Shown: one piece after another, positions 4,809 through 62,027 of the stretch
Layout of the letters: each line of letters opens with the position of its first letter
Position numbering within the stretch: position 1 is the stretch's first letter
DNA from: Naegleria lovaniensis
Taxonomy: Eukaryota > Heterolobosea > Eutetramitea > Acrasida > Naegleriidae
DNA: 64,000 nt
Reading direction: 5' to 3'
Assembly (NCBI RefSeq): GCF_003324165.1
Contig: NW_025407884.1
Span: 43,051-107,050, forward strand
The notes under the pieces: generated by a model
What the model saw: only the letters and a program-made list of their open reading frames with translations
Databases searched by the model: none
What the model was told of the DNA's origin: nothing
Made by a program: the position numbers and the translations under genes

Positions 4809-6520
4809 CTACTTTTCCAATTTTGCAACAATACTTTCAACCTTTGTCTTAAAATCAGCTCGCTCATTCTTTTGGTCGAAACGAATAAGGTGAGGAATAA
4901 ATTCTGGCTCTTTGGATAACTCTTCTGGTGTCAACTGTTCACAAAGTTGACTCTTGTGGACAGAGAAAATGATGGATTGTTCTTGGAATGGAGAGAATTT
5001 CATTCCTTTGAAAACCTTAGCGTTCAAGATGAGTTTGAGAACAGAGTCAGCTCTAATGACTAAACGAGCATCCTTCTCATCATTCTTGTTCAAATTAATC
5101 TTCAATGTACCAACACCTCGTTGTTGCCAAGTGGACTTGCCATCCACTGTCACGCTTCGATACAATTTGGCAGCCTTATATTCGCCCAATAATTTTTCAT
5201 TCTCTTCTCCGGATTTTAACTCAACTGGTGGAAGGTCAATAATCTTGTGACTCATGGCTGGAAGGTTTGGTTCGTAATCTGCTGCTTCTCCACCTTCCTC
5301 ATCTTCTTCATTAGCACCAGATACTTTTGGTTTGTAATCAGTATTGGTCCACGATGGTGGCTTGTTGCTAATTTCAAATTTAAATTGACTTTCTCCTAGA
5401 TTCGAACCTGCTCCACTGAATGGATTTGAAAATGTTGAAAAGCCTCCAAATGAGAATTTTTGAGGTTCACTAGCATTCGCAGAAGGAGTTCCACTGGAGA
5501 AATTGAAATTAAATGGTTTCTTTTCTTCGGGAGCCACTTGCTTTTTCTCTTCGGTGGGTGCTGTTGTCTTTTTCTCTTCCACTGTTGTTGGTGTTGGAGT
5601 TTTTTGCAACTCTGCTGTTGTTGGTGTTGCTGTGGTAGCAGTATGACTGGCTGCGGGTGTTGCTGTAGCAGAAGTTGGAGTTGGCTCAGTGGTGGCAGTA
5701 GTAGTATTTGCAGTTCCATTACTGGAAGGTTGTGGGAATGAAAATGCAAATGGCTTTGTTGCGGATTGATCGAAAGAGAAGGCAAATCCGCCACTGCTCG
5801 ATGATGTTGTTGCCTCTGATGGAGCTCCAGCACTCTTCTTCTCTTGTAATTGTTTCTTTAGCTTCTCAGTTTCACTCTCCAATTCCTTCACTCTTTTTTC
5901 CAATTCTTTAATACGAAGATCCTTGGCATCTTGTGGTGTTGGAGTGGTCTGGAAAGTAAATGTAGATGGCTTTGATGGTGGTTGTTGTTGAGATGGAATT
6001 GGGAAGCTCCAAACAGGTTGTTGTTTTGTTTCCGTAAAAGTAGCGGTGGCTGGTGTTGTTGTTGCTGGAGGAACAGCAAAATTGAAGGTTGTTGTTGGAG
6101 CACCAGAAGTAGCAGCGGTACCTTGCTTTCTCTTGGCCTTTATGGGTCTAAGAATTAAAATGTTTGAATTAATAAATAGTGTCTTACAAGATAATACTTA
6201 CTTTCGTTCTTTCAATTCTTCTTCGGAAGCCTTTTCAAAGTGTCCAGCTTCTGTTTCCTCATCATCTTGGTCTCTATGGTTATTGTTTGAAGCGACGGTG
6301 TGCCAAAAACATTTGATTTAAATGTAACAAATATTCATTGTTTTTGCAATGATGACAAGTGGATGTATTCAATTTTATACGATATATTCCGACCGAATAA
6401 TATTATTAAATACACATTACACCAAATGAATTACAATTTAAATAACACAAGACCGAGAATCATGATTGCTTACCTGAAATTTTCGGAGGTGAGTTGATGC
6501 TCGTTTGTTCGTTTCGACAT
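4809..6520 (-). CDS. NUP50: Nucleoporin NUP50/NUP2-like with C-terminal Ran-binding domain
   Basis: Three exons: 6520-6474 (47 nt), 6273-6202 (72 nt) and 6147-4809, with introns of 200 and 54 nt (GTAAGC and GTAAGT donors), giving 485 aa. The N-terminus starts MSKRTNEHQLTSENF and continues through DQDDEETEAGHFEKASEEEL and KAKRK. This is the NUP50 N-terminal motif that binds importin-alpha, and it is recovered only when both small exons are spliced. The middle is Thr/Pro/Ala-rich with sparse phenylalanine repeats (FNF, FAFSF, FSFGG) and a coiled coil (about residues 115-145). The C-terminal 130 residues are a RanBP1-type Ran-binding domain. NUP50 works at the nuclear basket, promoting cargo release from importin-alpha. 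It is divergently paired with the BET3 gene, 170 bp between start codons. Confidence 0.9.
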
Positions 6521-13498: not shown

Positions 13499-13744
13499 AT
13501 CATGGCATACTGTGTGAAAATTCAATACAGTTGTGTGAAGTCAATAAATTAAGTAATTTTACATGATGATTGGTTTCTTTTTCTTAAAAGTAGAAGGTGT
13601 GATTTTCGCAGAGGATTGTTCCCATTTTTTATGCTTGTTGTTAATCTTCTTCTATCAACTTGAGCTTGTTGCAGAACGCATTTACAATCCAATTCACATG
13701 ATTTACAATTCCATTAAGAATCTTGTATTTTTGAACTTTAAAAA

Positions 13745-16700
13745 ATGTCCAACAATGATGAAACAAAACCTGTTGATGAAGATGTAAATTTATCGGAAAA
13801 CTTTATAACTGCTCACGAAGATGTTTTTGTAAATAATAATCATAGCCATGAAAAAGTGAATCTTGCAACTGTACAAGACCAAACACAACCATCAGCATCG
13901 GGTATTGAAGAAGAAATTAATTTTGATGAGAATGAAACTATTCATGCACGTTCATCATCACCGACACTTTCCGATGACGATGCTAGTAGTAGTATCGTTG
14001 TTGATGATAGTGGAGACATAAATTTAGACGAAGAAGTTTCTATCATTGACGATGATGAATTACCAAATAACAATCATATTCAAAATAATTCTGCAAAATC
14101 CAGTAATGCTCAACAACATGGAATAACGCATCCGATCAAAACAGAAACACAAGAAGATGTAGATTTAAACGAAGAGGCTACTAGTCCGCTGCATTCAAAC
14201 ACCATGATCAGTGTAAGCCACATGGACCAACATAATTTTGTTGCAGCAACTCTTGACGACGAAGAAGTAGACTTGGGAGAAGTGGAAGAAATGATAGAAA
14301 CAATCGCTCCTTCTCCGTTATTGGATACGACTTTTTCACCTCGATCCGATCGGGAAACAAGAATAACAAATGCTCAACAACAACAACACGGCAGCAGCTT
14401 AACACAACAACCATCACAAACCTTTTCCGAAAGCATCATGCTCGATGAAGATATTAATTTTGACGAGCCAATCACAATAGAGGATGAAGAGGAAATCAAT
14501 TTCGATTCTGAATATTCTGAGAACGCTTCACAACAACTCAAAGCGACAATCAGAGTTAAAGAGGAAATGGTGGATGAGGATGTAGATTTAAACGAATCGC
14601 AAGCTGAATCATCGACATCTCTCGTAGAAAATACCAAAAATGAAACCGAAGCAAAATTAAGATCAACTCCATCCTTGGATTTTCAATCGGATTTGCAACG
14701 CGAGATGGAAGAGGAAATTGACCTAAATGATGATGAATCTTTATTGGATTCAATACCTCCTTCACCTCATCGAACTGATTCAACTACTGCACAGCAGCAA
14801 GATGCTGACACAACACTTAATGAAGACATTGGTTTAGATGAGCCTACATCAAACTCACTTCCCATTTTGTCAACGATGAACGAAACGATAAGCGTTGACA
14901 AGAATCAGCAGCAGCAGCAACAAGAACAACCTCCATCCATTCCTTCACACCCACAATTAATTCCTGAAGAACAAGACCGATTGCCTCCTTCAACTTCTTC
15001 TTCACAGGATGAAGAGTTCTTCCAAACCCTCAACGCAGCTCCATTACACACTCCTTCAACAACTACTCACGAGATTACCATTGCTCCAACCTTACCTCCA
15101 TCTAACGATCAAGAAACTCCACTTGTAAACATCATACTACCTCCTCATCAAGATGCTCATGTCACGCAAGAGCCATCCAAAACCATTGACATTATCTCAA
15201 TATCCTCTGACGATACAAGCACTGAAGGTTTTGATCATTCTGACGAGAGTCATGAAGAAGACGAAGAAGATGACTTGGATGAAGGTGATATCATGTCTGA
15301 CGACGACGAAAACTATCATCCCACTATCAGCATACGACGACTGGCAACCATGATGAAGCGAATATGCTCTGATTTGTGCACGGGAAGTTTTTCGAGTGGA
15401 GGGCAATTGTTTTGTCGAGTTGGATTGCCAGGATTGCAAATTCCCATACTGACACCAAGCAGTGACCCAATATCCTCGTCATTACGGAATCAACCACACC
15501 CAATGGCATCGCAAGAAACAGAGTCGTACACCAATGATCATCCAACCTTATTTAAACATGTTTCATTACCAATCGCTACTAAGGAACAAGCAGATGAGCT
15601 CATTAAGTTGAGCTTATCCGCTCGAGCTTTGCCACCGCTCAGAACACAAGACCAGAAGAAGATTTGGTACATTACTCCGAATCTATTCAAACTGACGAAT
15701 CCACACTGGGACAAAATGATTGCAGATGTGGTCGATGATTCTGCTCGACGTGGATTAGGTGTGAGTTCAAAAAAGAAAATCTCACACGAACTGGAATACT
15801 TGGTACTGTACCAAGATGGAAGTGTTGATTTTCACAGAGGAAAGAAACAATCCACTCGTGAACAAGTTAAAGAGGAAAATCCAGCATTTGCAAAACTCAT
15901 CGTTCAATTACCGTCAGTGTATAGTGGTGGAGCAGTAATCGTTCGATATCACGAAAAGGAGGTCCAATACGATTTCTCAGACTCTTCAAGTTATTTACCT
16001 TCGTATATATCACTGTATGATGAGTGTGATCGAGAAGAATGCTCAATTCAAAGCGGCTATCGTTTGTGTCTCGTCTACAAGATTATTTTCACAGGGGGAG
16101 AAGGACGAATACCCAAATTCGACCATGGCTCACAAATCAGCCACGATTTAAAAAGACTTGTGGATGAATGGTCAGAGCAGGAGCCACCCATGGCCGTTTT
16201 CCCACTCGCAAATGTCTATCCTCAATCATCCTTTAATTTCGAGTCTCTCAAAGATGACGATGCACTAATTTTCAATTTTTTCAATAACTTCAATGCCAAT
16301 CATCCACAGTTGCACTTATTCCTTGCAGTATTCGAGAAGAAAGCAGTAGTATCACGTTCAACAAGGAGCGATGAGACACAAAACATTTCATATCGAGCAT
16401 TTTCGCTGTTAGGACCCAATAATGATACTCGATTTCAAAAATTTAGCTTAAATTTAGATGTCTCAAGTATTTTTCCCTACGATGCTGTGACAGACATGCC
16501 ATTCACTGAGAGGAATCAACTCGGTAGTGGTCCCGTAGAATTGAAATGCCGCTGTACTTGCTTAATCATCATTCCTAAAAAGATTGACTACATGTTTTGG
16601 GCATATACGGATCCTACAAGTTGTTATCAGGGATTTTTGAGCCTCTACAATCAATATCGAAGCGACCCGACACGAAGAGATGCCTGCATTCGACTTGCTC

Positions 16701-18277
16701 TTTCACAAAAAGATTCAGCCATGTTCAAAAGTAATATTAGTGAACTCGTACCCATTCTCATTGACTTGAAAGACACCAATTTGCTGAAATTGTTCATTAC
16801 CAGTGCTGCAGCCAACATTAGTCTCAATACATGGAATGTCATCTTGTCACAATTTTCGATTGATGATTTGAAGCAAGAGTTTTTAACGAGTGTGGTTCGA
16901 TCGACCTGTGCCAACGCAAATAATCTTTGCCAAAGATTGCAAGCATCCATAGAAATGGTACAAAAATTTAATAATTCACAACTCTCTCAAGAATTTATTA
17001 CCAAGATCATTGAGTCTCTCAGTATCAATACCTCATCTCAGTACATGTCACTTAAAGCCATTGGAATACTGCTGAATACGCTAAACTCGTTGGAACTACC
17101 AATTACTCCTGCATTCAAAAAGTTGTTGGTAAAACGGACGGACATTTATACATTCTCGGATAAACCCACGGGAATTATTACATCCATATTCAGGACATGT
17201 CTGCAACAAAACGAGAGACCAATTTGTGATACTATTTTCAACAACATGATCCAGTCTGTGACTCCTCTAGCTCTAGAAGCTTCACTGGACACTTTCGTTA
17301 CAATAATTCACATGATTGGTTTGGAATCCTCAATTTCACGAGTGCAGAACGTTTTAAGAAGTGTCAACTCCATTACACTATATTTGAACATGATGAGAAA
17401 GCTACAAACAAATTTCTTAGAAAACAACTCTGAATATCATAAGGAGGCATCTTTTATTTTCAAGGAATGCAAACACCACGTTATTAATTCTTTTTATACA
17501 ATGCAAACTCTTGATATCACCTTGTGCCAGCAAGTTCTTGTATTTTTTTGGACAAACAAATTGTTGGATGACATTACTGGAATTACTTCAACTATTATTG
17601 TCAAAGCTGGAACCGATTATGAAGTATTGCTCACGCTCATTCGATATATTGAACAAAAGTTTGGACAAGCAGCATTTCAACACATTGCATTCAATTCGAT
17701 CCTTTTAAATTGCTCCAATATTGTCAAAGTGCACTTGTCTCAAGCATCAGCAAGCAGTGGACAAGATTGGTCTTTCAATGTTGACATGTCATGCCATTGT
17801 GCGTATTGTCAACCTGCACAATTGTTTTTAAAGGACAAGACGCAACGACAAATCGAGCTCAGACACGCTGAAAAATACAGAAATCACATCTCAGAACAAG
17901 TGAAGCAAGCTGTGGCCGACAATGCCAAATATTTGAAATTTGAGACCATCAAGACAGGCTCTCCCTATGGTTTGCTAATTAAGAAAATTGCAACACCCAA
18001 TGATAGTCAGAAACGCAAAGTTAAACGAATTCAAGACATTGACAATTATTTGACACGACTGATTGCCTCTGTCAATAATGCTAGCTCGTCCTCATCTCAA
18101 GTTCCAGGATATATTGTTGCATCCAATTCGCCCACAGCTAGCATGTCATCAAGCCAAAGCAATACATCCATTTCCTCCTCAGCCTCTACCTCGTCGTCAT
18201 CAGGCGTGAAACGAATCATCAGTCATTCATCCTCTTCTTCATTGAATCCACCCAATAAGAAATCAAAGGAGCGATAA
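13745..18277 (+). CDS. 1510-aa protein: acidic DINLDE-type repeats plus degenerate 2OG-Fe(II) oxygenase-like domain
   Basis: A single exon starting at an ATG after TTTAAAAA. Residues about 11-367 carry roughly ten copies of a short motif, [DE][DE][IV][DN][LF][DN]E (e.g. DINLDEE, DVDLNEE, EINFDEN), spaced by low-complexity sequence; residues 490-520 are strongly acidic. Residues about 600-780 resemble the prolyl-4-hydroxylase-like 2OG-Fe(II) oxygenase domain of large fungal and protist proteins: LVLYQDGSVDFHRG, LIVQLPSVYSGGAVIV and SGYRLCLVYKI. The expected iron ligands are largely missing. The HxD triad reads His697-Arg-Gly699, and the distal His position is Arg763; Arg773 of SGYR, the usual 2OG-binding Arg, is kept. 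The helical C-terminal half ends in a Ser-rich basic tail. Probably a non-catalytic scaffold; function unknown. Confidence 0.75.
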   Translation: MSNNDETKPVDEDVNLSENFITAHEDVFVNNNHSHEKVNLATVQDQTQPSASGIEEEINFDENETIHARSSSPTLSDDDASSSIVVDDSGDINLDEEVSIIDDDELPNNNHIQNNSAKSSNAQQHGITHPIKTETQEDVDLNEEATSPLHSNTMISVSHMDQHNFVAATLDDEEVDLGEVEEMIETIAPSPLLDTTFSPRSDRETRITNAQQQQHGSSLTQQPSQTFSESIMLDEDINFDEPITIEDEEEINFDSEYSENASQQLKATIRVKEEMVDEDVDLNESQAESSTSLVENTKNETEAKLRSTPSLDFQSDLQREMEEEIDLNDDESLLDSIPPSPHRTDSTTAQQQDADTTLNEDIGLDEPTSNSLPILSTMNETISVDKNQQQQQQEQPPSIPSHPQLIPEEQDRLPPSTSSSQDEEFFQTLNAAPLHTPSTTTHEITIAPTLPPSNDQETPLVNIILPPHQDAHVTQEPSKTIDIISISSDDTSTEGFDHSDESHEEDEEDDLDEGDIMSDDDENYHPTISIRRLATMMKRICSDLCTGSFSSGGQLFCRVGLPGLQIPILTPSSDPISSSLRNQPHPMASQETESYTNDHPTLFKHVSLPIATKEQADELIKLSLSARALPPLRTQDQKKIWYITPNLFKLTNPHWDKMIADVVDDSARRGLGVSSKKKISHELEYLVLYQDGSVDFHRGKKQSTREQVKEENPAFAKLIVQLPSVYSGGAVIVRYHEKEVQYDFSDSSSYLPSYISLYDECDREECSIQSGYRLCLVYKIIFTGGEGRIPKFDHGSQISHDLKRLVDEWSEQEPPMAVFPLANVYPQSSFNFESLKDDDALIFNFFNNFNANHPQLHLFLAVFEKKAVVSRSTRSDETQNISYRAFSLLGPNNDTRFQKFSLNLDVSSIFPYDAVTDMPFTERNQLGSGPVELKCRCTCLIIIPKKIDYMFWAYTDPTSCYQGFLSLYNQYRSDPTRRDACIRLALSQKDSAMFKSNISELVPILIDLKDTNLLKLFITSAAANISLNTWNVILSQFSIDDLKQEFLTSVVRSTCANANNLCQRLQASIEMVQKFNNSQLSQEFITKIIESLSINTSSQYMSLKAIGILLNTLNSLELPITPAFKKLLVKRTDIYTFSDKPTGIITSIFRTCLQQNERPICDTIFNNMIQSVTPLALEASLDTFVTIIHMIGLESSISRVQNVLRSVNSITLYLNMMRKLQTNFLENNSEYHKEASFIFKECKHHVINSFYTMQTLDITLCQQVLVFFWTNKLLDDITGITSTIIVKAGTDYEVLLTLIRYIEQKFGQAAFQHIAFNSILLNCSNIVKVHLSQASASSGQDWSFNVDMSCHCAYCQPAQLFLKDKTQRQIELRHAEKYRNHISEQVKQAVADNAKYLKFETIKTGSPYGLLIKKIATPNDSQKRKVKRIQDIDNYLTRLIASVNNASSSSSQVPGYIVASNSPTASMSSSQSNTSISSSASTSSSSGVKRIISHSSSSSLNPPNKKSKER

Positions 18278-18575: not shown

Positions 18576-19924
18576 ATGTCCACTTCAAACTTTGATCAAA
18601 CCATTCACTCTCTCGTTTCAAAACTCGTTCCCTCTCAACGTTTCATGATTTATGGATGCTATGGCTACACTGGTGAATTAATTGTCAAACTCGTACGAGA
18701 GTATGGACTTTTAAAAAAAGTTGTACTTGCAGGTCGGAATCGAGAACAATTAGAAGACATGTTAAAACGTCAAAAAATTGAAAAATCTGAAGTCGAATAT
18801 CAAGTATTTTCATTGGATCAAGATTCGGAAGTGATTGATGAACAAGTGAGAAAGGTCGATTTGGTCTTGTTGGTTGCAGGACCTTTTGTTTCAACTTCGA
18901 AGGCAATTGTTGACAGTTGTTTGAGATGTGGAGCTCATTATTTGGATATTACTGGAGAATGTAGGTGTTTTGTGGGGAATATTTTATTTAATTTTTTCGA
19001 ATTTGTCACATTTAATCAATGATTGATTTCACATGTTTAACAATTGACACTTGACAAGTCCCTGTATTCCAAAGCATTCTCGAAAATGAAACTGTCAAAA
19101 AACAAGCCTGTGAAAAAGACATTATTCTCATGCCAGGTGTTGGTTTTGATGTCGTTCCCACTGATTGTCTTGCCAAAACTCTCGAAGAAGCTTTCACTTC
19201 TAAATTTGGTAAAGAAAAAGCCACCAATCCCAATGCTCAACTCGAACTTGCCATCAATACCAGCAATGGCGCACAAACTTCTCGTGGTACCACAAAAAGT
19301 GCTGTCAACATGTTGAGAAGTGGTCAATGGGGATTTCCAGAACGAGTTCAAGGTGTCATTAAACCAGTGCCTCGCGTCGTAAAGGAATTCCCATTTTACA
19401 AAAATGGAAAAGAAGGATTTGAAAATTCTGAAATCAAGCAAGTGACCTGTATGAGTGTTCCTTGGGGAGATATAGCCACGGCATATGTGAGCACTGGAGT
19501 TCCAAATGTGAGAGTTTATTTTTCATCATCCAAGAATGCTGCAACAGTGGCCAAAATTATGAATATTTGGTTGGTCAACTTTTTATTCTTTTTATTCTTC
19601 AATTTACCATTCGTCGTTCCATTGATCTTTAAACTCATTGATTGGCTCATGCCAAAAGGACCTGAAGAAAGTCCTGACTCGAGAATTCAAATTTATGGCG
19701 AATTGACCTTTCAAGATTCTACAAATAAGAATTACAAAGTGTGTGGAAGAGCACAGACTCGAGCTGGTTACTTGTTTACAGCAGATAGTGCCTTATTGAT
19801 TACATTGAAGATTTTAACCAAGACTGGATTGAAGAAACATTCAGGATGTTTGACACCATCGTTGGCGTTTGGAGCTGATTTTTTGAATGAAATTGGTGGA
19901 TGTAAGGTTGAGATTGTTGAGTAA
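18576..19924 (+). CDS. SCCPDH: Saccharopine dehydrogenase-like oxidoreductase (SCCPDH family), two exons
   Basis: Exon 1 is 18576-18960 and exon 2 is 19059-19924. The 98-nt intron has donor GTAGGT and acceptor TTGACAAG, and the phase 1 join rebuilds GAHYLDITGEFPVFQ, the family's conserved segment; 416 aa. The start is the ATG after a run of A's. The N-terminus is a Rossmann fold with the dinucleotide loop GCYGYTGE (about residues 26-33) and LAGRNREQL. PGVGFDVVPTDC follows the join, and a long hydrophobic stretch (about 310-340, IWLVNFLFFLFFNLPFVVPLIF) should be a membrane or lipid-droplet anchor. SCCPDH proteins sit on membranes and lipid droplets; their substrate is not established, so lysine catabolism should not be assumed from the name. 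Confidence 0.88.
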
Positions 19925-22533: not shown

Positions 22534-23276
22534 GCATCATTCTGCAACAAAGAAATTCAAGTACTACGGAGCGTCAACTATACCAATACATCACGGAAAG
22601 CAAATTTACAGTGATTATTATAGATTGAAATTATTATTGAATGGTCAATCTTATACGGATGCTTCCATATTATGAATGACATGGACTTCTCACAACTCTC
22701 CAAAAATTCAAGTGATTCAAACTCTCAATGTGAGTCAGTTAACGATTATTGATTTAAATGACATCATTGTCAAGCATTCCATTTATAGGTCTATCTCATC
22801 CAACGCTTCAAAATGCAACACAGTGATACAAGTAGCATGAGAAGCAAACTTGTCAGATTCTTTCAATAAGAGCCGGATGTTGTGTGATAATTCATTATGG
22901 TTTGTTTGATGAGTTTTTGGGTCTTCTCAAGTACCGTGATGCTCCCTTATTGAAACACACTGAGAGTTGAACTTTATGGAATAAACCTTCTAAGTAATCT
23001 CGAACTGTGTACCTTGGAATGAGAGGATTATGGATTGAGGGTGATCAAATCATTTAGAACTTTAAATATTAACCATCTTCTCTCTCCTTTTTTTACTATA
23101 TGTTAAGCAACATGCGTCTTGAGTTGATAGATTTATGTAAGACTGTAAATTAAGAAGGAGGGAATGGACGGAACAAGAATGGAAATTGAATTGACAAATT
23201 AGAAATGACAATCACGCCAACAATCATCAAAAAAAAAAATTGTCTCATTGAAAATCATTCATCCTCACAGTGCAAC
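22534..23276. other. Long intergenic region holding a scrambled HECT-gene relic
   Basis: About 740 bases. Apart from the pseudogene pieces at 22624-22868, listed separately, the rest (22869-23200) shows no coding bias. The 5' leader of the kinase-HECT gene begins within it and has a 10-A run near 23230. Confidence 0.6.
22624..22868. pseudogene. Rearranged relic of the HECT C-lobe of the downstream gene
   Basis: Bases 22624-22785 match 26946-27124 of the kinase-HECT gene in the same orientation. The first 30-odd bases (ATTGAAATTATTATTGAATG and on) are identical; after that there are substitutions, small deletions and loss of about 16 nt. Bases 22805-22868 then match 27150-27210 of the same gene but as the reverse complement, including the region around the catalytic Cys codon. 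The piece is therefore a direct segment followed by an inverted one. In-frame stops and indels rule out coding. It is probably the remains of a tandem paralogue that broke by inversion. Confidence 0.85.
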
Positions 23277-26200
23277 ATGTCAAACAGGCAACAAAGAAGT
23301 GAAATGATTGATCGTGCTTTTAAAGCCATCAAAGATGGTGATTTGAATGAATTGCGAGGAATGGATTTGCGTCCGATTATTAATGAAAAGAAAGATGATT
23401 GTACAATGTTATGCGATGCATGTTGGAAAGGAGATTTGGAAATTGTGAAATTGTTGTTGAATGTGGATGGAATTGATTTTAATTTGAATACTAGAGTAAG
23501 TTTTTAATGAAATTGTGTTTGATATTTGAGAATGAATGATAATGTTTGTAAATATAGGGTGTAAGTATTGATTATTGTTTGTTGAATTGAATGAAATTCA
23601 AATGTTATAATTATTTCAACTCATGAAATAGGAAGTAAGTATTATTGAACTTATTTTCAAAATTCATTCATTTCAAAAGACTCCATTATTCATTGCATGT
23701 TATAATGGACATTTGGAAATGGTGAAACTTCTTCTTGCCCACAATGATATTCAAATTGATGAAGATACTCAACATCGTGCACAAAGAAATGACATTAATT
23801 TACAACAACTCCAAACACAAGCTCGTCAAACCGTCTCCAATTCAAACCATTCTTCCACAACTATGATCAGCAATAACAACAATACCATGAGATCACCATC
23901 CTTATCATTTCTTCAGATGTTCCAAACAAGCAATGAAATTCGTTCCAACAATCCTTCCACTTCAAGTGCACCCAGAACAAGTGACAATCTTAATGAATGG
24001 AAAGAACGAAACAAGAAACTCGAAGAACAAGTGAAATCTCTTGAAATGAAACTCTCAAAGATGCAATCCGAACATACACAACAGAGAGACCAATGGAACC
24101 ACATGATTTCTGAACACGAGCAAACCATCAACACCTTGCTTAAACAAATTTCTCAAAATGAGACAGATTTGAAAAGAGTTGTTGACGAGAAACAACAGCA
24201 AATGAAGACATTTGAAGTTGAAATGAAAAAATTGCAAAGTAATCTCAATCAAGTCGTTCATGAGAAGAATCAATTGCAGCAACAGCAACAAGGATCAGAT
24301 ATTGATTCTTTTATTCAACGTCTCATGAATGAAATTAAGAATGATTCAATTTCAAACAGTCACATTCCTGAAGATATTCAAGTCAAAAGAAGCATTGAAA
24401 AAATTGAACAAAAGTTGAACGAATGTGAACAATCCTTGTCTAGATTGGTTCTCAATGATCAGCAATGTTTGGTCATTTCTCAGTCTGAACCTACAGTTGA
24501 CTACAATTCTGTGAATGAACTTGTTCAAAAGAGAAACAATCTCAGAGATGAATTGTCCAAAGAATATGAGAAGTATAATCGTGTGTTAAACAAGATGACC
24601 ATTCTAGCAACGAAAAAGAAATTAATCGCGGCATATAATGCATCCAAGAATGAAACGACAGACGAGGACAAGATGTTGAGTTTATCCATGAGACAGTTGT
24701 CATATAAATCTATATATTTACAAAACCTAATTAAGGAGAAGAAAGAAATCGAAAATCTCTATCAACAGCTTAAAGAATTAAAACTTACCATTGGAAAGAG
24801 TGAATCAGAAATAGCAAAGATTACTTTGGATTTGCAATATAGTGATGATTTGACTGAACATCAATGGTCACATCTCGAAGAAAAACAAGACAAATTAAGA
24901 TCCAACCTCAATACTCTCAACAACAAGTTTTCAGAGCTCAAAACTCTATTAATGAGCCACGTTCAGCAATATCCTGAAGTAATTGTGGAGCTTGACAAGA
25001 TATTAAGCGCTTCTCAAAGAAAATTCAATGTCCAAAGAGCAGCTACTCCATCTCAAAAATTCCAAAAATGGGCATCTTCAAAGAATATCCTTCTCCATGG
25101 AGCGTCTTTTAAACATTACCACCAAATCGAGTCATTACATAATGGTCTCTCTAATGCATATTTGATGAAGAAGGACAATCAACATGTGGTTCTTAAGGAA
25201 ATTGCATTTGGTGAATCGACTTATCATTTAATCATTAATGAACTTACAAATATCATTAGACTTGGAAAATGTGATCGAATTGTGAAGGTGAATGGTGTGT
25301 TTGTAGAACCTGGAATGCCTCATGTTTACATTGAAATGCCTTATTACCCGAATGGAAATTTGAGAAATTATATCATGACTCTGAAAAGTCATCAACCACA
25401 TGAACGTAGAGAAACAATGAGAAGACTCATGAGAAGTATTGTTGAAACCATTTATTACATGCACTCGAAAGATATTATTCATCGTGATTTGAAAAGTGAC
25501 AACATTTTGGTTGACAAGAATGGAAATGCTGTCATTGCTGATTTTGGTAGTAGCAAGAAACTTCATGCTCTCCTCACCAACAAATCTATTGGAATTGGTA
25601 CTGAGAATTATATGGCTCCTGAAGTTCGTCATTCAGCTCCAAATGAAAAATCTGACATTTGGTCATTGGGTGTGACCATGTTAGAATGTTGGTATTATTT
25701 AGAAAACAAAAAGCAAAGATATGATCCTCGTGACTCCATTATTCAATACAGTGGTGAAAATAAGGTTCATTTACCAACTCCTGAGGAAGATGATGAACAT
25801 GGAAAATTACTGATGGAAATGTTAAATCTAATTTTCAATTGTGACGAACCTCATCAAAGACCTTCTGCCATGGAATTGTTGAAAGAAAATTATTTCACAA
25901 AAGGATTGACTGAAATGTTGGAACATCAAGGAATTCAACTCAGCACTCCAGAATCTCGAATTCAACAATGGATTCACACATTGAATGAATTGAGAAAGAT
26001 TATGAAAAATCAGGTTGGAAAAAATTTGACTCGATTGACCATTAATCGAACTCGATTGTTGGAGCAAATCTCTTCCAAACTCTATTCTATATTTTTCAAT
26101 TCACAACACAATCCTACAACATTTGACCAATATTTAAAGCTCTACACTTCGTTTCAAGTTCAATATGAAAATGATGAAACGGGAATGGAAAGTGGAATTG

Positions 26201-27297
26201 ATCAAGGCGCCTTAACCAATGAATTATTTACAAAATATTTCCCTGAATGTTTGAAGAATGAAAAGTTATTTACACGTTCAGAAACACAGAGTGTTGAGAA
26301 TTACATCTTGTCTTCAAGTGAAGAGAATATTTCGGAAGAAGAAGAACAAATGTTGGTTGTTTTTGGATTTTTATTGAAGAAGGTCTTGTTGGAATGTGAT
26401 GAAAGATCCTTGTATTTACCAATCAATGATTTCATTCTCAAATATTTGATTTATGATGCGAGTATTTCCAATGATGTGACTATTGATGAAATTCATAGAG
26501 AAAGAGAATTGATGATTGTCACTTGTCAACTCAAGAAACCATTGAAAGATCAAATCTCTTATTGGAAACATTTTGTTTCTCAATATGATTCTCAATATTG
26601 TGAAAACATTTTAGAAATGAAAAGATATACTTCCAATGAGGACTTGCAATTCATTGAAGAATCATTCAGCAATGACTTGTTTTACTCTCCAAATTCTCAA
26701 AGTATTGACAAGAAAGAAATGGCAGTGAATATGGAACATGTTGATGAATATATTATTCATTTATTGAGAAAAACTCTCTTCTCACCCATTCAAAGAAGAA
26801 AATTGAAACTAATTTCAAAAGGATTTCAATGGTATTCGATTCAACAGTTGAGGAATGTGGTTTCAAATTCTTCACAACAACAAGTCAAATCTTTACTCAC
26901 TCAAAATAAGGATTGGTTCATGGAAAGCAAATTGACAGTGATGGAATTGAAATTATTATTGAATGGTCAATCTTATATTGATGCTTCCATGTTATTGAAT
27001 GAAATGGACTTCTCACAACTCTCTCCAAAAATTCGAAACAATTTCACACAAGTGATTCTAATCCTCAATGTGAGTGAATTGAGACAATTATTGATTTGGA
27101 TGACTTCATTGTCAAGCATTCCATTGATGGGACTTCCAAAGAAGATTGTGTTGAAAGAATCTGACAAGTTTGCTTCTCATGCTTGTAACACTGTGTTGCA
27201 TTTTGAAGTGTTGAATGAGAAAGATTATGAAAAGTTTAGTTCTCAATTTTTGAACATGTTGAAATGGTCTGAAGATGCCACTCAAGAAGATAGATAA
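23277..27297 (+). CDS. Ankyrin / coiled-coil / protein kinase / HECT ubiquitin-ligase fusion
   Basis: Proposed exons are 23277-23495, 23558-23560, 23632-23634 and 23680-27297 (1280 aa). The two 3-nt exons supply Gly and Glu and restore an ankyrin repeat (NTRGETPLFIACYNGHLEMVKLLL). Residues about 20-110 are ankyrin repeats; 180-280 and 300-525 are coiled coils. A kinase domain spans about 555-815: Lys581 (VLKEI), HRDLKSDN with Asp678, DFG at 696 and an APE-type motif, though the Gly-rich loop is weak (HNGLSNAYL). Residues about 875-1280 are a HECT domain: GIDQGALTNELF in the N-lobe, LLNGQSYIDASML, LSSIPLMGLPKKI and SHACNTVL with the catalytic Cys1244, 36 residues from the end as in active HECT ligases. 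Likely substrate selection by ankyrins plus dual kinase/E3 output. An alternative start lies at 23205. Confidence 0.8.
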
Positions 27298-33209: not shown

Positions 33210-33624
33210 TCATTGAGGTTGAAAATTGAAAACATTCATGATGGAACATGGTAAGGAATGCTGTCAAGGATTTGAACCCTGACACGATATAGAAGTAGTT
33301 AAACAATTTGAGATTTCATTTGTAATATGACAATGAATGAACATGATATATAAGCTTATTGTTCTTTGAGCAGTGAAACAAGATGATCATGTGTTTTATT
33401 GTACTTATTCAAAGATTGACATTGAAATTGTTCTTAAAACTTTGAAGGGATTGATGGTCCATAATAAAGTCTTTGTAATACTGAAAATTTTGTATGTGAC
33501 GTTGCTTTCGCAAAATTTTTTGCTGTGCCTGTTGGGTTTTAAAGGGCACTTACGCTCTCTTCGACAAAAAATATTATTAAAAAAACACAAAACATTCGCT
33601 TGATCAAACTGCAGAGTCATCACC
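33210..33624. other. Intergenic, pseudokinase to small basic protein gene
   Basis: About 415 bases. Includes the 3' flank (CATGATATATAAGC) and an A-rich leader at 33577-33590 before the next gene. A T-loop-like sequence near 33275 was examined and rejected as a tRNA. Confidence 0.4.
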
Positions 33625-40142: not shown

Positions 40143-42641
40143 TTACCACAATACCATCATGAATATCACAAACATGCACCCCGTCATCAACTTGAAATTT
40201 GAAACTAATCTTCCCAAAGAACTTGCTTTTGAAACACTTCGTTTGGACATTGAAACCAATGGACGATTATTCGACAATGATTTTTTGGGAGACAAACTTG
40301 GTTTGGGAGAAGGTCGTGGAGGAGGAGGAGGAGGAATTGGTTCTCTTTTCTCACTCAACAGTCCAATGTCATCGAATGGAATTTTCGTAAAATTATAAAA
40401 TGTCCAATTTCCTTCATAGATATTTCCTGGAATTAAATTAAAATTCAATTCTGAAACATTCATAAAGATGGACATGGAAACATTGAAAGTATTATTCGTA
40501 TAGACGCTATACATGTCCGTATAGGGTTGAACCACATGATTCGCAGTGAATGATTCGGTCACTAAATTATTCGAAACGACATTTCCAAATGGCTCAAACG
40601 GATTTCCATCGAGAATTCTCGCCAATTCTGGATACGCTTGTTCCCATAGCGAACTATTGAAAGGAACTGCCCATAAATTATTCCAAATGGATCGACGCCA
40701 TTCGTCATCGTTCCATTGCAATCCACGAGCATCGATTCGAATACTGGACCAATTTCGAATGAAAATGTTGTTTTGCACTTGATTGTGTCGACCTCCTCCG
40801 ACAATGACTCCGCGATTACAATCGTACAAGACATTTCCGAAAACGATGGCACTTGAAAATACATCGTCGAGATAGATACAGGCAGCTCCCCAAGTGAGAC
40901 CTCGAACTCGGTAGATAAAGTTGTATTTGACAACGTTGCCTCGTGTGGTCCAGTCTCGTCCTGATGGGAATTTTTGGCATTTGACAGATTGGAAAATTTG
41001 AAAAATTATTGAAATCAAAGAATGTTCAATGAAAGAGACTTACCCATATAGATAGCACCTGCGTCGTCACTTGTTTTAACCACATCATGAATCTTGTTAA
41101 AAGACACTTCATGGTTATTACCAATAAGCATTAATGCCGCATGATCACCGTTAAAAAAATAGTTATGTGTGACTTTAGCACCGACTCCTTCTATTCTAAC
41201 AGCTGAGAGTTTCATGAGTTCGATCCATCCAAAAACGGTTTGATAGAAAAACAATAATTAGCGACATGCTGTCAAATAAATCGTGAACAAACTTACCAGG
41301 TCGATAAACTTTTCCAACCCGAGAAAAACTATGAATCAAATTGTTCGAGATGAAATTGTTACTTGGAATCAACTTGGCTCGATCACTGGGTGGACCTGTC
41401 ACAATGACACCTCCTTTGCCAATTTGAAAGATTTCATTATTAGTGACCAAACAGTTTCGACAACCTAACAATGACAATCCAATAGCACCCACATTCGAAA
41501 TGATGCTATTATTCACCACAATGTAATGACTGTTCCAGGAATAAATGGCATTTCCTCGGACAAATCCAAATTCAAGAGAATCAAAAATTTGTGCATGGGC
41601 ATTGACTTGAACGAGTGTTTCCGTCAATGAAAGAACAACATCATTTTCATGTTCAATCGGAGCAGGAGGCCAGAAATACAAAACATTATCTTGCAAAATG
41701 TATTCTCCAGCTTGATCGAGTTCACTCAAAAAGTTGACCAAATAAAAATTACTTCCCGAAGCGATCGATCCATCGGCAACGACATTTCTCAACACTACAG
41801 TTCCATTTGCGTCAATGTTTTGAATCCCTTCGACAGAATCTGAATAATCATCTTTCCAGTAACCAAAAGCATATCCATTTTGTTCTTTGGACCATTTGCT
41901 CTTATTGGGACATGAAGTGCTGTTGAAAAGAAAAGAATTGGTTCCTTTCGAAGCAGTTTTCATGTAGACATCTAACACGAGACTCGGATTGCTCTCATAT
42001 TGTGTATTCAACTTGTTGGGATATCTTGCCACGGTCTGAGGAAAGTCTCGGAAAAACAACTCCGATCCCGCGGAGGCTTTTCCATCCATCCGGCCAGAGA
42101 CTTTGAAAGGAGTAGCAATTACTGAAGGTGATAGAAGTGTCAAATTACATTGATAGACCTTTCCTCTCGCTCCAAGTGGAAGCATTTCATAAATCGATGC
42201 ATGCTCATCCAATGTCACTTTTTTCCACATATACGGAGGTAAGGAAATTCCTCCAGTAATGTTCACATCTCCTCTCGAGCTCCCAGGAATGGGTCTCCAT
42301 GTTACTGGAGAGAATTGATCATTAAATTTCGAAGGACGAGGAATCACCAATGTCGAATTCAAATAAAAAGTGCCAGGCATCAAATTGACATAGATGGAAG
42401 TATTCAAAGTCAATTTCGAATTCTTGAGAAGAGTCACCATCGAAGAAGCCTTGTCCAAGGTAGCGAATGGAAACTGTGTGGAATTTCCTGAAAAGAGATC
42501 ATTGCCCTTCGTTGGTGAAACAAATAAATGAATTTCAAACGTTGAATTTGATGCATGAACAGAATGACTCGACCACAGAATGGAAAGAAACAAAACCGCA
42601 ACAACAACAGCCACAGCAGCAACGATAAGGCGATCCAGCAT
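40143..42641 (-). CDS. Secreted right-handed beta-helix protein, probably GPI-anchored, three exons
   Basis: Exons 42641-41297, 41202-41044 and 40960-40143; introns of 94 and 83 nt (GTAAGT donors; CTCTCAG and CCATCAG acceptors); 773 aa. The joins rebuild KVYRPAVRIEGVGAKVTHN and GAIYMGRDWTTRGN, both canonical for the pectate-lyase-like right-handed beta-helix proteins (DUF1565-type FVSPTKGND start after the signal peptide). Residues 1-31 are a signal sequence. About 35-680 form the helix, with GGGRHNQVQNNIF and IYLDDVFSS as late rungs; then a Pro-rich linker (PPPPPPRPSP) and a hydrophobic C-terminus (FKLMTGCMFVIFMMVLW) without a basic end, typical of a GPI-anchor signal. Likely surface carbohydrate-binding or lyase activity; substrate not predictable. 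It may act in bacterial feeding. Confidence 0.85.
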
Positions 42642-44248: not shown

Positions 44249-45919
44249 TCATGTTGTTCCCAAATAGGCATCAAAGTAGCAATGTGTCATTCTTTCTTGA
44301 TACAATACATCATTGTACTCCAACACAAAACCATTGCATTTGAGAGCTTCACAAATAAGCTCTCGATCGTTTTTCAGTTCCAGGCTTGCATATGTCAATG
44401 CTGCTCCATTATTTTTCACAGCCTCTAACAAGAGTTCCTTGTCACGACATGTATGATAACCGAATCCAAATATTCCAAGACCATTTTCTTTGACAGCTTT
44501 TAACAAGAATTCTTTGTCATTATAAAATTCTCTTGGTGAGCTGGAAACAACATCTTTACAGCCCAGCTGAACAAGCTGTAATAAGAATTGTTTGTCTCTC
44601 AAAAGCTCAGTTGAAGCATATATAAAAGCATCCGAAAATTGCTTGACGGCTTCAATGACTAGCTCTCGGTCATTTTTCATCGTTTCGTTTGTAAATAGCA
44701 AAGCGTGACCATTTTGTCTTAGAGCTGTTAGTACAACTTCTCTATCGCTTTTCAACTCGTTGGATGCATATTGTAGAACATGCCCTGCTTGTCGTACAGC
44801 AGCTAATACAATCTCTTTATCATTCCTCAATTCTTCTGCTGCAAATTCAAGTGCACCACCCTGTTGGTTGACAGCAGCAAGCACAACCTCTTTGTCTCTT
44901 TTCAATTCATCAGAGACAAAATGTAATGCTCTCCCATTTTGCTGAACCGCTACAATTGCAATTTCTCTGTCATTACTCAAATTGTCAGAAGCAAAACAAA
45001 GTAAACGTCCATCATTTTTGATTACATTCAAAATAATATCTCGATCATTCCTGAGCTCTTCGCTTACAAATTCAAGTAAAAATCCAAATTCTTGCACAAT
45101 TGGAGTCACTATTTCTTTCTTTGAATAATCATAAGAGGAAAGTTCTGGAAATATTAATTTGAGAGCCTTCAACATGAACTCTTGATCTGCAAGTAAATAT
45201 TTTGGTACCCATTGCAGAGATCGCTTTGTTTGTTTGATAGCTTCAAAAATTATTTCTTCGTCGATTTCCAAATTGTAAATATGAACGAGTTGCAACACAC
45301 GCAATGCTTCACCATTTTGTTTCATTGCAGCTAAAACAATTTCTCGATCTTCTATCCATTGTCCAACACTATACAGAGCATTTCCATTCCGCCGAATTGC
45401 TTCCAATACAAATTCACGATCTTTAATACGTCGTTTTGAGACCTGTGCCAATGCATAGTCGTTGCTCTTTAAGGCCGTTAATACCACTTTCTTGTCGTTA
45501 CGAACACTAGAAGAAGCGTGCTGCAATTCATTTCCATGTTTTTTAACTACTTTCAAGACAAAATCTCTATCATCTTTCAATTGTGCCGATGCATGTTTTA
45601 ATCCATACCCATACTTGTTGATATGATTCAATACAAATTTTTTATCATTCATAAACTCAACTGGAATGAACGACGAATATTTCAATTCCCGATTCAACAA
45701 CCACTTCTTCTTTCCTTCTTGTTGCTTTAAAAATTTCTGTTTTAATACAAATTCCAACCTCCGAATTCTAGAATGTTCTTCTACCGGTGTGCTGTGTTTA
45801 CAAGGAAGAGTATCATCATCCCTAAGCAACGAATGGTTTCCAGAAAAATCCAATAATACCAGCCTCACAGTGTGATCATCACACCAGTTCATCATTTTTT
45901 TTGAGAATATCGATTTCAT
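44249..45919 (-). CDS. DUF4116 repeat protein
   Basis: A single exon of 556 aa, ATG at 45919. From about residue 85 to the end it consists of 17-18 units of about 25 residues with consensus NDREIVLAAVKQNGxALQYASEEL (DUF4116). The best-preserved copies are in the middle (KRDKEVVLAAVNQQGGALEF, RNDKEIVLAAVRQAGHVLQY), with decayed copies at the start and end and one irregular long unit near 275-310. Each repeat is a helix pair, so the protein forms a helical solenoid. DUF4116 is common in protists and some intracellular bacteria; the molecular role is not known. The N-terminal 80 residues are basic and not repeat-like. Confidence 0.9.
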   Translation of the reverse strand: MKSIFSKKMMNWCDDHTVRLVLLDFSGNHSLLRDDDTLPCKHSTPVEEHSRIRRLEFVLKQKFLKQQEGKKKWLLNRELKYSSFIPVEFMNDKKFVLNHINKYGYGLKHASAQLKDDRDFVLKVVKKHGNELQHASSSVRNDKKVVLTALKSNDYALAQVSKRRIKDREFVLEAIRRNGNALYSVGQWIEDREIVLAAMKQNGEALRVLQLVHIYNLEIDEEIIFEAIKQTKRSLQWVPKYLLADQEFMLKALKLIFPELSSYDYSKKEIVTPIVQEFGFLLEFVSEELRNDRDIILNVIKNDGRLLCFASDNLSNDREIAIVAVQQNGRALHFVSDELKRDKEVVLAAVNQQGGALEFAAEELRNDKEIVLAAVRQAGHVLQYASNELKSDREVVLTALRQNGHALLFTNETMKNDRELVIEAVKQFSDAFIYASTELLRDKQFLLQLVQLGCKDVVSSSPREFYNDKEFLLKAVKENGLGIFGFGYHTCRDKELLLEAVKNNGAALTYASLELKNDRELICEALKCNGFVLEYNDVLYQERMTHCYFDAYLGTT

Positions 45920-46022
45920 GAGTTGTTTATTTAATTGATGACAACTTCAAGTTCAGTTAGAGTTCATTCAGATCATGATTAAGGGAAATTCACATACCAA
46001 GAAGAGCAGCAGCATTCTCTCT

Positions 46023-54100: not shown

Positions 54101-54810
54101 TTTGTTTGGAGTTGCAAAAGGAATGAATTATTTACATACACTGAAACCAAAGGGAATTATTCATAGAGATTTGAAACCTGGAAATATTTTGATTGACAAT
54201 CATTTCACAGCAAAGATTTGTGATTTTGGTTTAAGTAAGGCATTGACAGATTCCAATTCAGCAACCACGAATATTGGAACATTGTCCTATATGGCTAATG
54301 TAAGTTATTGATGGCTACAGGGAAAGACGTTATTCATTGTTCAAATGATTTTCGTAATACTCGCCATATTTCTGATGTGTCCATCCAATCGTACAGGAAA
54401 TGATTGAAGGAAATTCCAACTACAATCACAAGGTAGACGTCTATAGTTTTGCAATCATCATGTGGGAATTATTCTTTGAAGAGACTCCATATCTGAACTC
54501 GGCCTGTGAAAAGCTTTACAAATTTATTGAACAAGGTGACGATGTTTCGAGGTTTAATGTCATTGTAAAAGTATTGAAAGGTGAGAGACCAGTGATACCT
54601 TTTCGAAACCATGAAGAAATGAGAGAATGGATTTCCGTGTATTTGATAGACCAAACCAACACATTACAAACATCGTTGGATATTTTGTGTGACGTGACAC
54701 AAGAATTCGTTTCAATCATGACATCTTGTTGGAATGCCAATTATTCAGAAAGGCCTGAATTTAGTGAAGTGTGTTTGAGACTTTCAAAATTATTAGAGTA
54801 CTCAAAATAG
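51177..54810 (+). CDS. Receptor protein kinase with beta-helix ectodomain, two exons
   Basis: Exon 1 is 51177-54299 and exon 2 is 54397-54810 (97-nt intron, GTAAGT donor, GTACAG acceptor, phase 0); 1178 aa. The start is an ATG after a run of A's and gives a signal peptide (hydrophobic about 15-32). The ectodomain (about 40-735) is Asn/Ser/Thr-rich with polymorphic-membrane-protein-like GGA(I/L/V) rungs near 510-580. One span lies at about 740-762. A tyrosine-kinase-like domain (about 860-1165) has a GANGTVYLASW Gly loop, Lys895, HRDLKPGN (Asp998) and DFG at 1016. The intron cuts just before the APE motif, which reads ANE. Kinase motifs are intact. A surface sensor for prey, matrix or self is plausible. 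Kinase subfamily TKL is likely but not proven. Confidence 0.88.
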
Positions 54811-55310: not shown

Positions 55311-56883
55311 ATGCTGAAAACCGCTGTATCGGGATTTTCTCTTTGCAAAAAATTTCCACACAACACCACAGCAGCCTTGTTGTTGAACACTTCAAACGTT
55401 GTTGCTCATCATCAGACTCGTTCCTCTGCTACGACCACAACACCATCATCATTATTGAATCATCAAGTGAGATCCTTCTCTACTAGAAACTCAACCATCA
55501 TGGCTTCATTCCAAAAGATTAAAGTTGCAAATCCAGTCGTTGAATTGGACGGAGATGAAATGACCCGTATCATCTGGGCCTGGATCAAGGAAAAGCTCAT
55601 CCTTCCATACCTTGAACTCGATATCAAGTATTACGATTTGGGTATTGAAAAGAGAGATGAAACCAGTGATAAGATCACTGAAGAAGCTGCTCATGCCATT
55701 AAAAAGTACAATGTTGGTATCAAGTGTGCAACCATCACTCCTGATGAACAACGTGTTGAAGAATTCAAATTAAAGAAGATGTGGAAATCACCAAACGGAA
55801 CGATTCGTAACATTTTGGGTGGTACTGTCTTTAGAGAACCAATCGTTATAGAAAACATTCCAAGATTGGTTCCTGGTTGGACCAAGCCAATCGTCATTGG
55901 TCGTCATGCTCATGGTGATCAATACAAGGCCACTGATTTGGTTGTTGGTGAGCCAGGTAAGATGGAACTTGTTTTCACTCCAAAGAATGGTGGTGAACAA
56001 AAGAGATACACTGTCTTTGACTTTGAAGGTGCTGGTGTTGCTATGGGAATGTACAATACTGATGAATCCATCCGTGATTTTGCTTATTCATGCTTCAACT
56101 TGGCTGTTGATAAGAAGTGGCCATTATACTTGTCCACAAAGAATACCATCTTGAAGGCCTACGATGGTCGTTTCAAGGACATCTTCCAAGAAATTTATGA
56201 AAAGGAATTCAAGACCAAATTCACTGAATTGGGCATTTGGTATGAACATCGTCTTATTGATGACATGGTTGCTCAAACTTTGAAGAGCAATGGTGGATTC
56301 ATTTGGGCATGTAAGAACTATGACGGAGATGTTCAATCCGACATTGTTGCTCAAGGATATGGTTCATTGGGTTTGATGACCTCTGTTTTGTTGTGCCCAG
56401 ATGGTAAGACTGTTGAATCCGAGGCTGCTCACGGTACTGTCACCAGACACTACAGACAACACCAAAAGGGTGAAGAGACCTCAACCAATCCAGTTGCTTC
56501 CATCTTTGCTTGGACTCGTGGTTTGGCTCATCGTGCCAAGTTGGACAATAACGATGCTTTGGCCAAGTTCTGTGACTCTTTGGAGGCTGCTACTATTGAC
56601 ACTATTAGAGAAGGAAAGATGACCAAGGATTTGGCTATCTGTATTCACGGAAACAAGTAAGTTTTTGGTGTTGTTCGATGATTTGTGATTTTAACACGAA
56701 TATTGCCTTTAAATATGTTCTGCATCTGCTGAATGATTTTTCACAAATTTGTGAAATACACAAACCAACTACTTTCGGATCACATTCATGCACAACAACA
56801 GTGTCAACCGTAGCCAATATCTCAACACCAAGGAATTCATGGATGCTATTGATGCATCATTGAAGAAGAAACTAGGATTGTAA
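55311..56883 (+). CDS. IDH: NADP-dependent isocitrate dehydrogenase
   Basis: Exon 1 is 55311-56656 and exon 2 is 56802-56883, joined by a 145-nt intron (GTAAGT donor, CACAACAACAG acceptor, phase 2). It rebuilds [22 protein letters not shown] at the C-terminus; 475 aa. The first 60 residues are basic, Ser/Thr-rich and end near RSFSTRNS, a mitochondrial targeting peptide. The enzyme core then begins [24 protein letters not shown]. Family motifs: [36 protein letters not shown] and [17 protein letters not shown]; the catalytic fold is complete. It decarboxylates isocitrate to 2-oxoglutarate with NADP+. The internal Met at 55501 could yield a cytosolic form. Codon use here is more biased (GGT, AAG, TTG) than in neighbours, as expected for a highly expressed gene. 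Confidence 0.95.
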
Positions 56884-61150: not shown

Positions 61151-62027
61151 ATGGGTGCTCTATTTTCCAAATTGTGGGAATTGTTTAACGGCAAACAATT
61201 AGAAATTTTGATGGTCGGACTGGCCAACAGCGGAAAGACCACCTTGTTGAATGTTATCAGTGATAATGAACCAGGTGATACATTACCAACAGTGGGTGTC
61301 AATGTTAGACATGTAAAGAAAGGAAACGTTACAATGAAAGGTGAGTGTGTTGAGCCGTTCGAGTAGTAATAGTAGCATGATGACATGTGATCATATTTTC
61401 AATGATTTTCTGTGGATATGATTATATATTACATATTGTTAAAATCATCATGATGGGTTGTTATCATCATTGTCCATGATGGTTGCCTCATTCCACTCCG
61501 TTCAATCGTGTCACTGATTTTGAACTGTTGCACAATTTGTGGCGTGTCACGACGACATGACTGGATGACAGTGATGGACCTCGGTGGTCAAGAGAGATTT
61601 AGAAATTTGGTAGGTTTCCACTCTAAAATGATTTTGATTTTTGATGATCATGATTCAAAAACATCGTACTTCTCTGATTCAATAATGATGCAAAATAACA
61701 ATTACATTGAAACAGTGGGTCCAACATTCTGGCAGTTGTCAAGTTGTGATATTTGTTGTTGATGGTGCCGATATTGACAAGGTTCCAGAAGCAAAACGAG
61801 AACTTCACAAACTGTTAGAAAACAAAGATTTGGAAGGAAAGCCAGTGTTGATTGTTTTGAACAAGATTGATATTGAACGAAGATTTACAAAGGACGACAT
61901 TGTCAAACACATGAATTTGGATTATATTGACAATAAGAAGAATCCTTGGGCTGTCATTCCAATTTCTGCTTTACACAAGACCAATATTACCGATGTTGTG
62001 GATTGGTTGATTAAGCAAACTAAATAA
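61151..62027 (+). CDS. ARL8: ARL8 small GTPase, three exons
   Basis: Exons 61151-61340, 61572-61609 (38 nt) and 61716-62027; introns of 231 and 106 nt (GTGAGT, GTAGGT donors; GACAG, AACAG acceptors); 179 aa, close to the usual 186. Motifs: GLANSGKT (P-loop, about 24-31), TVGVNVRHV (switch 1), DLGGQERFRN (switch 2, rebuilt across the first join), VLNKID (G4) and ISALHKT (G5). The N-terminus MGALFSKLWELF is amphipathic, as in ARL8, which uses an acetylated N-terminal helix instead of myristoylation; a Gly at position 2 is present here. ARL8 positions lysosomes via motor adaptors. The 38-nt exon lies entirely within switch 2. Confidence 0.9.

Follow-up and report, generated by a model that had tools for sequence, protein, structure and literature searches.

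The window, that is the whole stretch of 64,000 nucleotides that was analysed, has a GC content near 37%. This value, the style of the genes and a ten-copy DUF4116 protein suggest Naegleria, whose assemblies are tabulated at 35-37% GC (PMC9928731), and the host is probably a free-living amoeba; the case made below is independent of its identity. On its forward strand, positions 23277-27297 hold a gene that fuses ankyrin repeats, a protein kinase and a HECT domain in one chain. Joining exon 1, two exons of three nucleotides each and exon 4 gives a single open frame of 1280 amino acids, with a Pkinase match of 126.7 bits (Pfam) and a C-terminal HECT match of 39.3 bits. We read the N-terminal side as two ankyrin repeats, and the long charged stretch between ankyrin and kinase looks, by eye, like a coiled coil. 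The protein may combine a kinase and a ubiquitin ligase. An in-frame stop is found upstream of exon 1 at 23187; another in-frame ATG, at 23205, precedes 23277 by 72 nt without an intervening stop, and the true start of the gene may be earlier than 23277. The predicted features are as follows.

Exon 1: 23277-23495, plus strand, 73 codons; first ankyrin repeat; ends ...NLNTR in phase 0; placed by frame, translation and Pfam ankyrin matches
Intron 1: 23496-23557, plus strand, 62 nt, GTAAGT...ATATAG; GC 0.21; retention would give in-frame stops
Microexon 1: 23558-23560, plus strand, GGT for Gly74 in the context AG-GGT-GTAAGT; present in all three GxTPLFIA paths among the 471 enumerated below
Intron 2: 23561-23631, plus strand, 71 nt, GTAAGT...AAATAG; GC 0.21
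Microexon 2: 23632-23634, plus strand, GAA for Glu75 in the context AG-GAA-GTAAGT; likewise present in all three GxTPLFIA paths among the 471
Intron 3: 23635-23679, plus strand, 45 nt, GTAAGT...CAAAAG; GC 0.20; length a multiple of three, stop-free
Exon 4: 23680-27297, plus strand; remainder of the second ankyrin repeat (TPLFIA...), coiled coil by eye, protein kinase, HECT, stop

All three introns are in phase 0. GTAAGT stands as donor at 23496, 23561 and 23635, and the acceptors end at 23557 (ATATAG), 23631 (AAATAG) and 23679 (CAAAAG). A preliminary description of this DNA had proposed three introns (62, 71 and 45 nt) and the composites ATAG-GGT-GTAAGT and ATAG-GAA-GTAAGT; the lengths and coordinates are exactly as it gave them, and both composites and the reading frame are present in the sequence. 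The predicted splice-joined sequence over both microexons is ACTAGAGGTGAAACTCCA. Taking a microexon as an internal coding exon of at most 15 nt, GGT and GAA would both belong to this class, each being directly flanked by an acceptor and a donor.

Parts of the protein were also compared with contig collections. Among viral contigs the 113-residue ankyrin part found no relative, and the 413-residue kinase part matched one locus (L001) at 36% identity. Among genome contigs a 766-residue piece of exon 4 matched one locus (L002), in which the stretch 5001-5615, within a Bacillota metagenome bin, is 27% identical to query residues 364-560. Neither locus is informative on intron positions.

Splice paths and the ankyrin core

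Splice paths with sites in 23430-23765 were enumerated, keeping those that are in frame and stop-free, with GT/GC-AG introns of at least 25 nt and at most three introns. This yields 471 paths (440 if only GT-AG introns with a minimum of 30 nt are allowed), three of which restore GxTPLFIA. Because both 3-nt exons occur in all three, the ankyrin core is impossible without both single-codon exons within the limits of the enumeration. Only one of the three paths has GTAAGT donors throughout. The other two take GTGAAA (23445) or GTGGAT (23463) as first donor and lose part of repeat 1. There is a unique strong path, and we infer that the RNA is spliced along it, with constitutive rather than regulated inclusion of both codons. 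Six in-frame, stop-free paths run on GTAAGT donors alone. Inclusion of the two microexons is needed for the ankyrin motif, not for the reading frame.

With Gly-Glu included, T43 in repeat 1 and T76 in repeat 2 are 33 residues apart, and the pattern of an ankyrin repeat (approximately 33 residues with a GxTPLHxA core) is present at an Ank score of 50.7 bits against a cut-off of 21.1. The preliminary description had called the ankyrin spacing exact. This stands for the G-x-T-P-L core and for the step from T43 to T76, but not for the hairpin, which looks one residue short: many PDB alignments carry one gap there despite Gly-Glu (5 chains among the matches listed, the others being gap-free). Skipping both exons does remove Gly-Glu, as had been expected, the product of the 184-nt joint having no ankyrin Gly and a step of 31 residues.

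We scored fourteen versions of the protein by Pfam: four isoforms, the form retaining intron 3, and nine with other residue pairs. The Gly-Glu form is the best of the 14 on Ank, Ank_3, Ank_4 and Ank_5, by small margins; together with the three core paths this supports the claim that both microexons are needed for the ankyrin core. On Ank the scores are 50.7 bits for Gly-Glu, 47.9 for full skipping, 47.2 for G only, 47.5 for E only and 50.5 for the best control (Gly-Lys), and Gly-Glu compares with skipping as 48 against 45.8 on Ank_5, 47.4 against 44.7 on Ank_4 and 40 against 38.2 on Ank_3. For the four favouring models the gain is 1.8-2.8 bits over full skipping and 0.8-6.2 bits over inclusion of one codon. 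Gly-Glu is not the best form on Ank_2, where it reaches 55 bits against 64 for E only, 62.5 for VE, 60.3 for II and 55.4 for GK; the three highest of these scores are each made up of two separate stretches. Five versions score above Gly-Glu on Ank_KRIT1 and three on ANK_LRRK2. Overall, the support from the protein scores appears mostly consistent, but modest.

Taken by themselves, the site counts are unremarkable; it is the clustering and the frame that carry the case. GTAAGT occurs 18 times in the window (17.2 expected) and AG-NNN-GTAAGT three times on both strands (0.82 expected), with at least three of the latter in 5 of 100 whole-window shuffles. The interval itself was subjected to 20,000 dinucleotide shuffles in which the outer donor and acceptor were fixed, scoring as a microexon any stop-free stretch with a GTAAGT donor and a length of 3-15 nt divisible by three. 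At least one such microexon arises in 75 of the 20,000 shuffles and at least two in none, a statistical excess at the locus; with the looser donor GTRAGN at least two arise in 3 of 20,000. In composition, introns 1, 2 and 3 have GC contents of 0.21, 0.21 and 0.20, whereas 45-nt windows taken from the same gene's exons average 0.335. Overlapping exon 4 windows of the same length reach a GC as low as the intron or lower in 5 of 3555 cases for intron 1, 1 of 3546 for intron 2 and 17 of 3572 for intron 3. Both controls, the shuffles and the GC comparison, are consistent with three introns.

The third AG-NNN-GTAAGT composite lies on the minus strand at 33548-33558. It was rejected as a microexon, being outside any minus-strand open frame of at least 120 aa.

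Proposed intron definition and alternative readings

Judging from the sequence, we consider it very probable that three very short AT-rich introns sit at neighbouring codon boundaries, enclose two constitutive one-codon exons (Gly and Glu) and are removed by stepwise intron definition. That three functional introns lie 3 nt apart in one transcript, with obligately sequential intron definition and each of the two amino acids in an exon of its own, is likely. Each intron would be recognised across itself, through its own perfect GTAAGT and its AT-rich body. Such intron-wise pairing is the natural reading, because a 3-nt exon is unrecognisable across itself and the introns are short and AT-rich. 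The donors match CAGGTAAGT at 6, 6 and 7 of 9, and their exonic side adds little to recognition.

Two spliceosomes would be unable to sit on both sides of one microexon simultaneously. Given that each acceptor and the next donor are only 3 nt apart, removal would be stepwise; introns 1 and 3 could be removed at the same time, with intron 2 preceding or following them. A codon, once joined, would be locked in rather than spliced out again, because the junctions AGA^GGT and GGT^GAA rebuild no strong donor. The GT sites after ligation are the weak GTGTAA and GTGAAG, the next true donor, and GTATTG/GTATTA just behind that donor.

Several known arrangements were considered for the locus and rejected. 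It is not a recursive splicing site or RS-exon, as no GT is formed at AGA^GGT or GGT^GAA. Nor is it a stwintron: examination of donors and acceptors gives each intron an intact GTAAGT and AG, with 3 coding nt between. An introner or tandem intron duplication does not fit either, the pairwise local scores being equalled by 206, 195 and 128 of 500 shuffles each.

Along the predicted path both microexons appear strong and intron 3 somewhat weaker. Retention of intron 3 would preserve the frame, since its length is a multiple of three and it is stop-free, and would add the open 15-residue insert VSIIELIFKIHSFQK. It is therefore conceivable, if quite improbable, that these 45 nt are exon, in which case there would be one 3-nt exon (GGT), an exon running from GAA onward and the insert within the repeat. 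The long open frame does begin at 23632, and the codon usage of the 45 nt does not leave the coding range, 18% of 1190 coding windows having an equal or lower score. However, such an insert would sit inside the ankyrin hairpin, parting Gly-Glu from Thr-Pro-Leu, and lower Ank_4 from 47.4 to 35.3 bits. This loss of 12 bits, the perfect GTAAGT at the 5' end and the low GC (0.20, as low in only the 17 exon 4 windows) argue that intron 3 is removed. Another reading is inclusion of both microexons in only some transcripts: the three phase-0 introns could act as a small in-frame switch altering the ankyrin hairpin, with the forms R-TPLF, R-G-TPLF, R-E-TPLF, R-GE-TPLF and, through retention of intron 3, forms with 15 additional residues. 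The six paths on GTAAGT donors agree with such a switch, and there are reports of both exon skipping and intron retention for Naegleria gruberi, as for other lineages (PMC6142364). We nevertheless regard it as unlikely, as skipping requires introns of 136, 119 or 184 nt that enclose a shorter strong pair, and forms without one or both residues score lower on four ankyrin models (E only being higher on Ank_2).

The simplest gene model is a single in-frame intron of 184 nt (23496-23679), with the inner sites as decoys or relics. It is this intron that was listed by the automatic coding scan, which required flanks of 150 nt and was blind to microexons. The model is highly improbable in view of two extra perfect in-frame GTAAGT sites, each 3 nt past an AG, a configuration obtained in none of the 20,000 shuffles; its product, moreover, is the one without the ankyrin Gly and with the 31-residue step. 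Assembly error, a pseudogene or chance has a next to negligible probability. Although the locus is represented by one sequence copy, the 1280-aa frame is intact and has ankyrin, kinase and HECT matches, and the shuffle test argues against chance.

Comparison with known microexons

Exons of a single nucleotide have been described: APC11 has one in Arabidopsis, and 1-nt microexons are given for APC11 and VPS55 in plants (PMC4674806, PMC8831610). As in our case these exons are too small for exon definition, and VPS55 has conserved GTRAGT donors. The authors of the APC11 study suggest intron definition and recursive splicing, with the introns removed one by one (PMC4674806), and we liken the sequential removal proposed here to that suggestion. 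Whereas the plant exons are described as isolated and were shown in RNA, the present ones are two in tandem, with three introns within 184 nt, and are read from DNA alone. CYP621A of Fusarium likewise contains an ultra-short exon that is needed for a conserved motif, but this is one fungal exon of a single nucleotide, confirmed in RNA reads (PMC12940212).

Adjacent microexons are known as well. Exons of 5 and 12 nt lie next to each other in a rice transcript (PMC8831610) and in a peptidase M1 gene of Zygnema and land plants; the Zygnema annotation overlooked both, by which the Peptidase M1 motif was lost (PMC11096116). Our pair shares the adjacency, but the plant exons, as described in these papers, are longer, are not single codons and are RNA-verified. 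Human RPS24 also has consecutive microexons including a 3-bp one (3, 18 and 22 bp), but these are alternatively spliced: the isoform classes contain none of the three, or the 22-bp exon alone, with the 3-bp exon or with the 18-bp exon (PMC11162997). Stwintrons, the spliceosomal twin introns of fungi (PMC6616335), resemble the locus as short packed introns that need consecutive intron-defined reactions. There, however, a splice element of one intron is broken up by another intron, whereas here three complete introns are parted by codons.

In the open-licence literature we found no paper on microexons in Naegleria, and none of the matches listed describes a consecutive pair of 3-nt exons, although single-nucleotide exons and adjacent microexons are known. 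If true, the locus would provide a compact natural test of the minimal distance between two used splice sites. It would equally test whether the splicing of short introns needs a definable exon at all. Intron positions this close would also bear on intron gain and on the coexistence of near intron pairs. For annotation, gene predictors may call one 184-nt intron and lose two codons of a conserved motif.

Reference introns and neighbouring genes

Five introns of the window served as a reference set; each was set by eye at first, and its joint was afterwards checked by protein comparison. Other automatic candidates were left out. Placement was done by eye because some acceptors in the automatic list were judged wrong (54432 against 54396 from the kinase match).

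18961-19058: saccharopine-dehydrogenase-like gene; AAG acceptor
54300-54396: kinase gene; joint tested by Pfam
56657-56801: NADP-isocitrate dehydrogenase; joint tested by alignment to structure
61341-61571 and 61610-61715: Arl8-like GTPase, two introns; Pfam and structure match

Four of the five are well supported, by matches that run on past the joint. The kinase joint turns pieces of 129.3 and 34.0 bits into one stretch of 174.9 bits. Once joined, the Arl8-like GTPase scores 151.9 bits against Arf over 167 residues, and Arl8A is aligned unbroken at both joints. The dehydrogenase tail is aligned across 56657-56801, the structure having one added residue. The joint at 18961-19058, the sole AAG precedent for intron 3 in the window, has only weak support: its alignment to a solved structure continues over the joint with an E of 0.0081, and the Pfam match stops short of crossing.

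The reference donors are GTAAGT (2), GTAGGT (2) and GTGAGT (1), and the acceptors CAG (4) and AAG (1). None of the five ends in TAG, whereas introns 1 and 2 do. The reference introns measure 97-231 nt, all of them longer than our three (45-71 nt); beside them, the shortness of our three introns is either a point against these or simply a property of the gene.

A candidate intron at 41296-41191, outside the reference set, ends in AATAG. The minus strand at 40961-41296 holds a beta-helix-like gene, apparently with two introns (approximately 106 and 83 nt) around an internal exon of approximately 147 nt. The frame at 13742-18274 gave no match to solved structures, and a tRNA scan of the window with the bacterial code found none. 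The Arl8-like small GTPase gene spans 61151-62027 with its two introns, its best structure match being Arl8A. Finally, an open frame on the minus strand at 44249-45946 contains ten DUF4116 stretches (435 bits).
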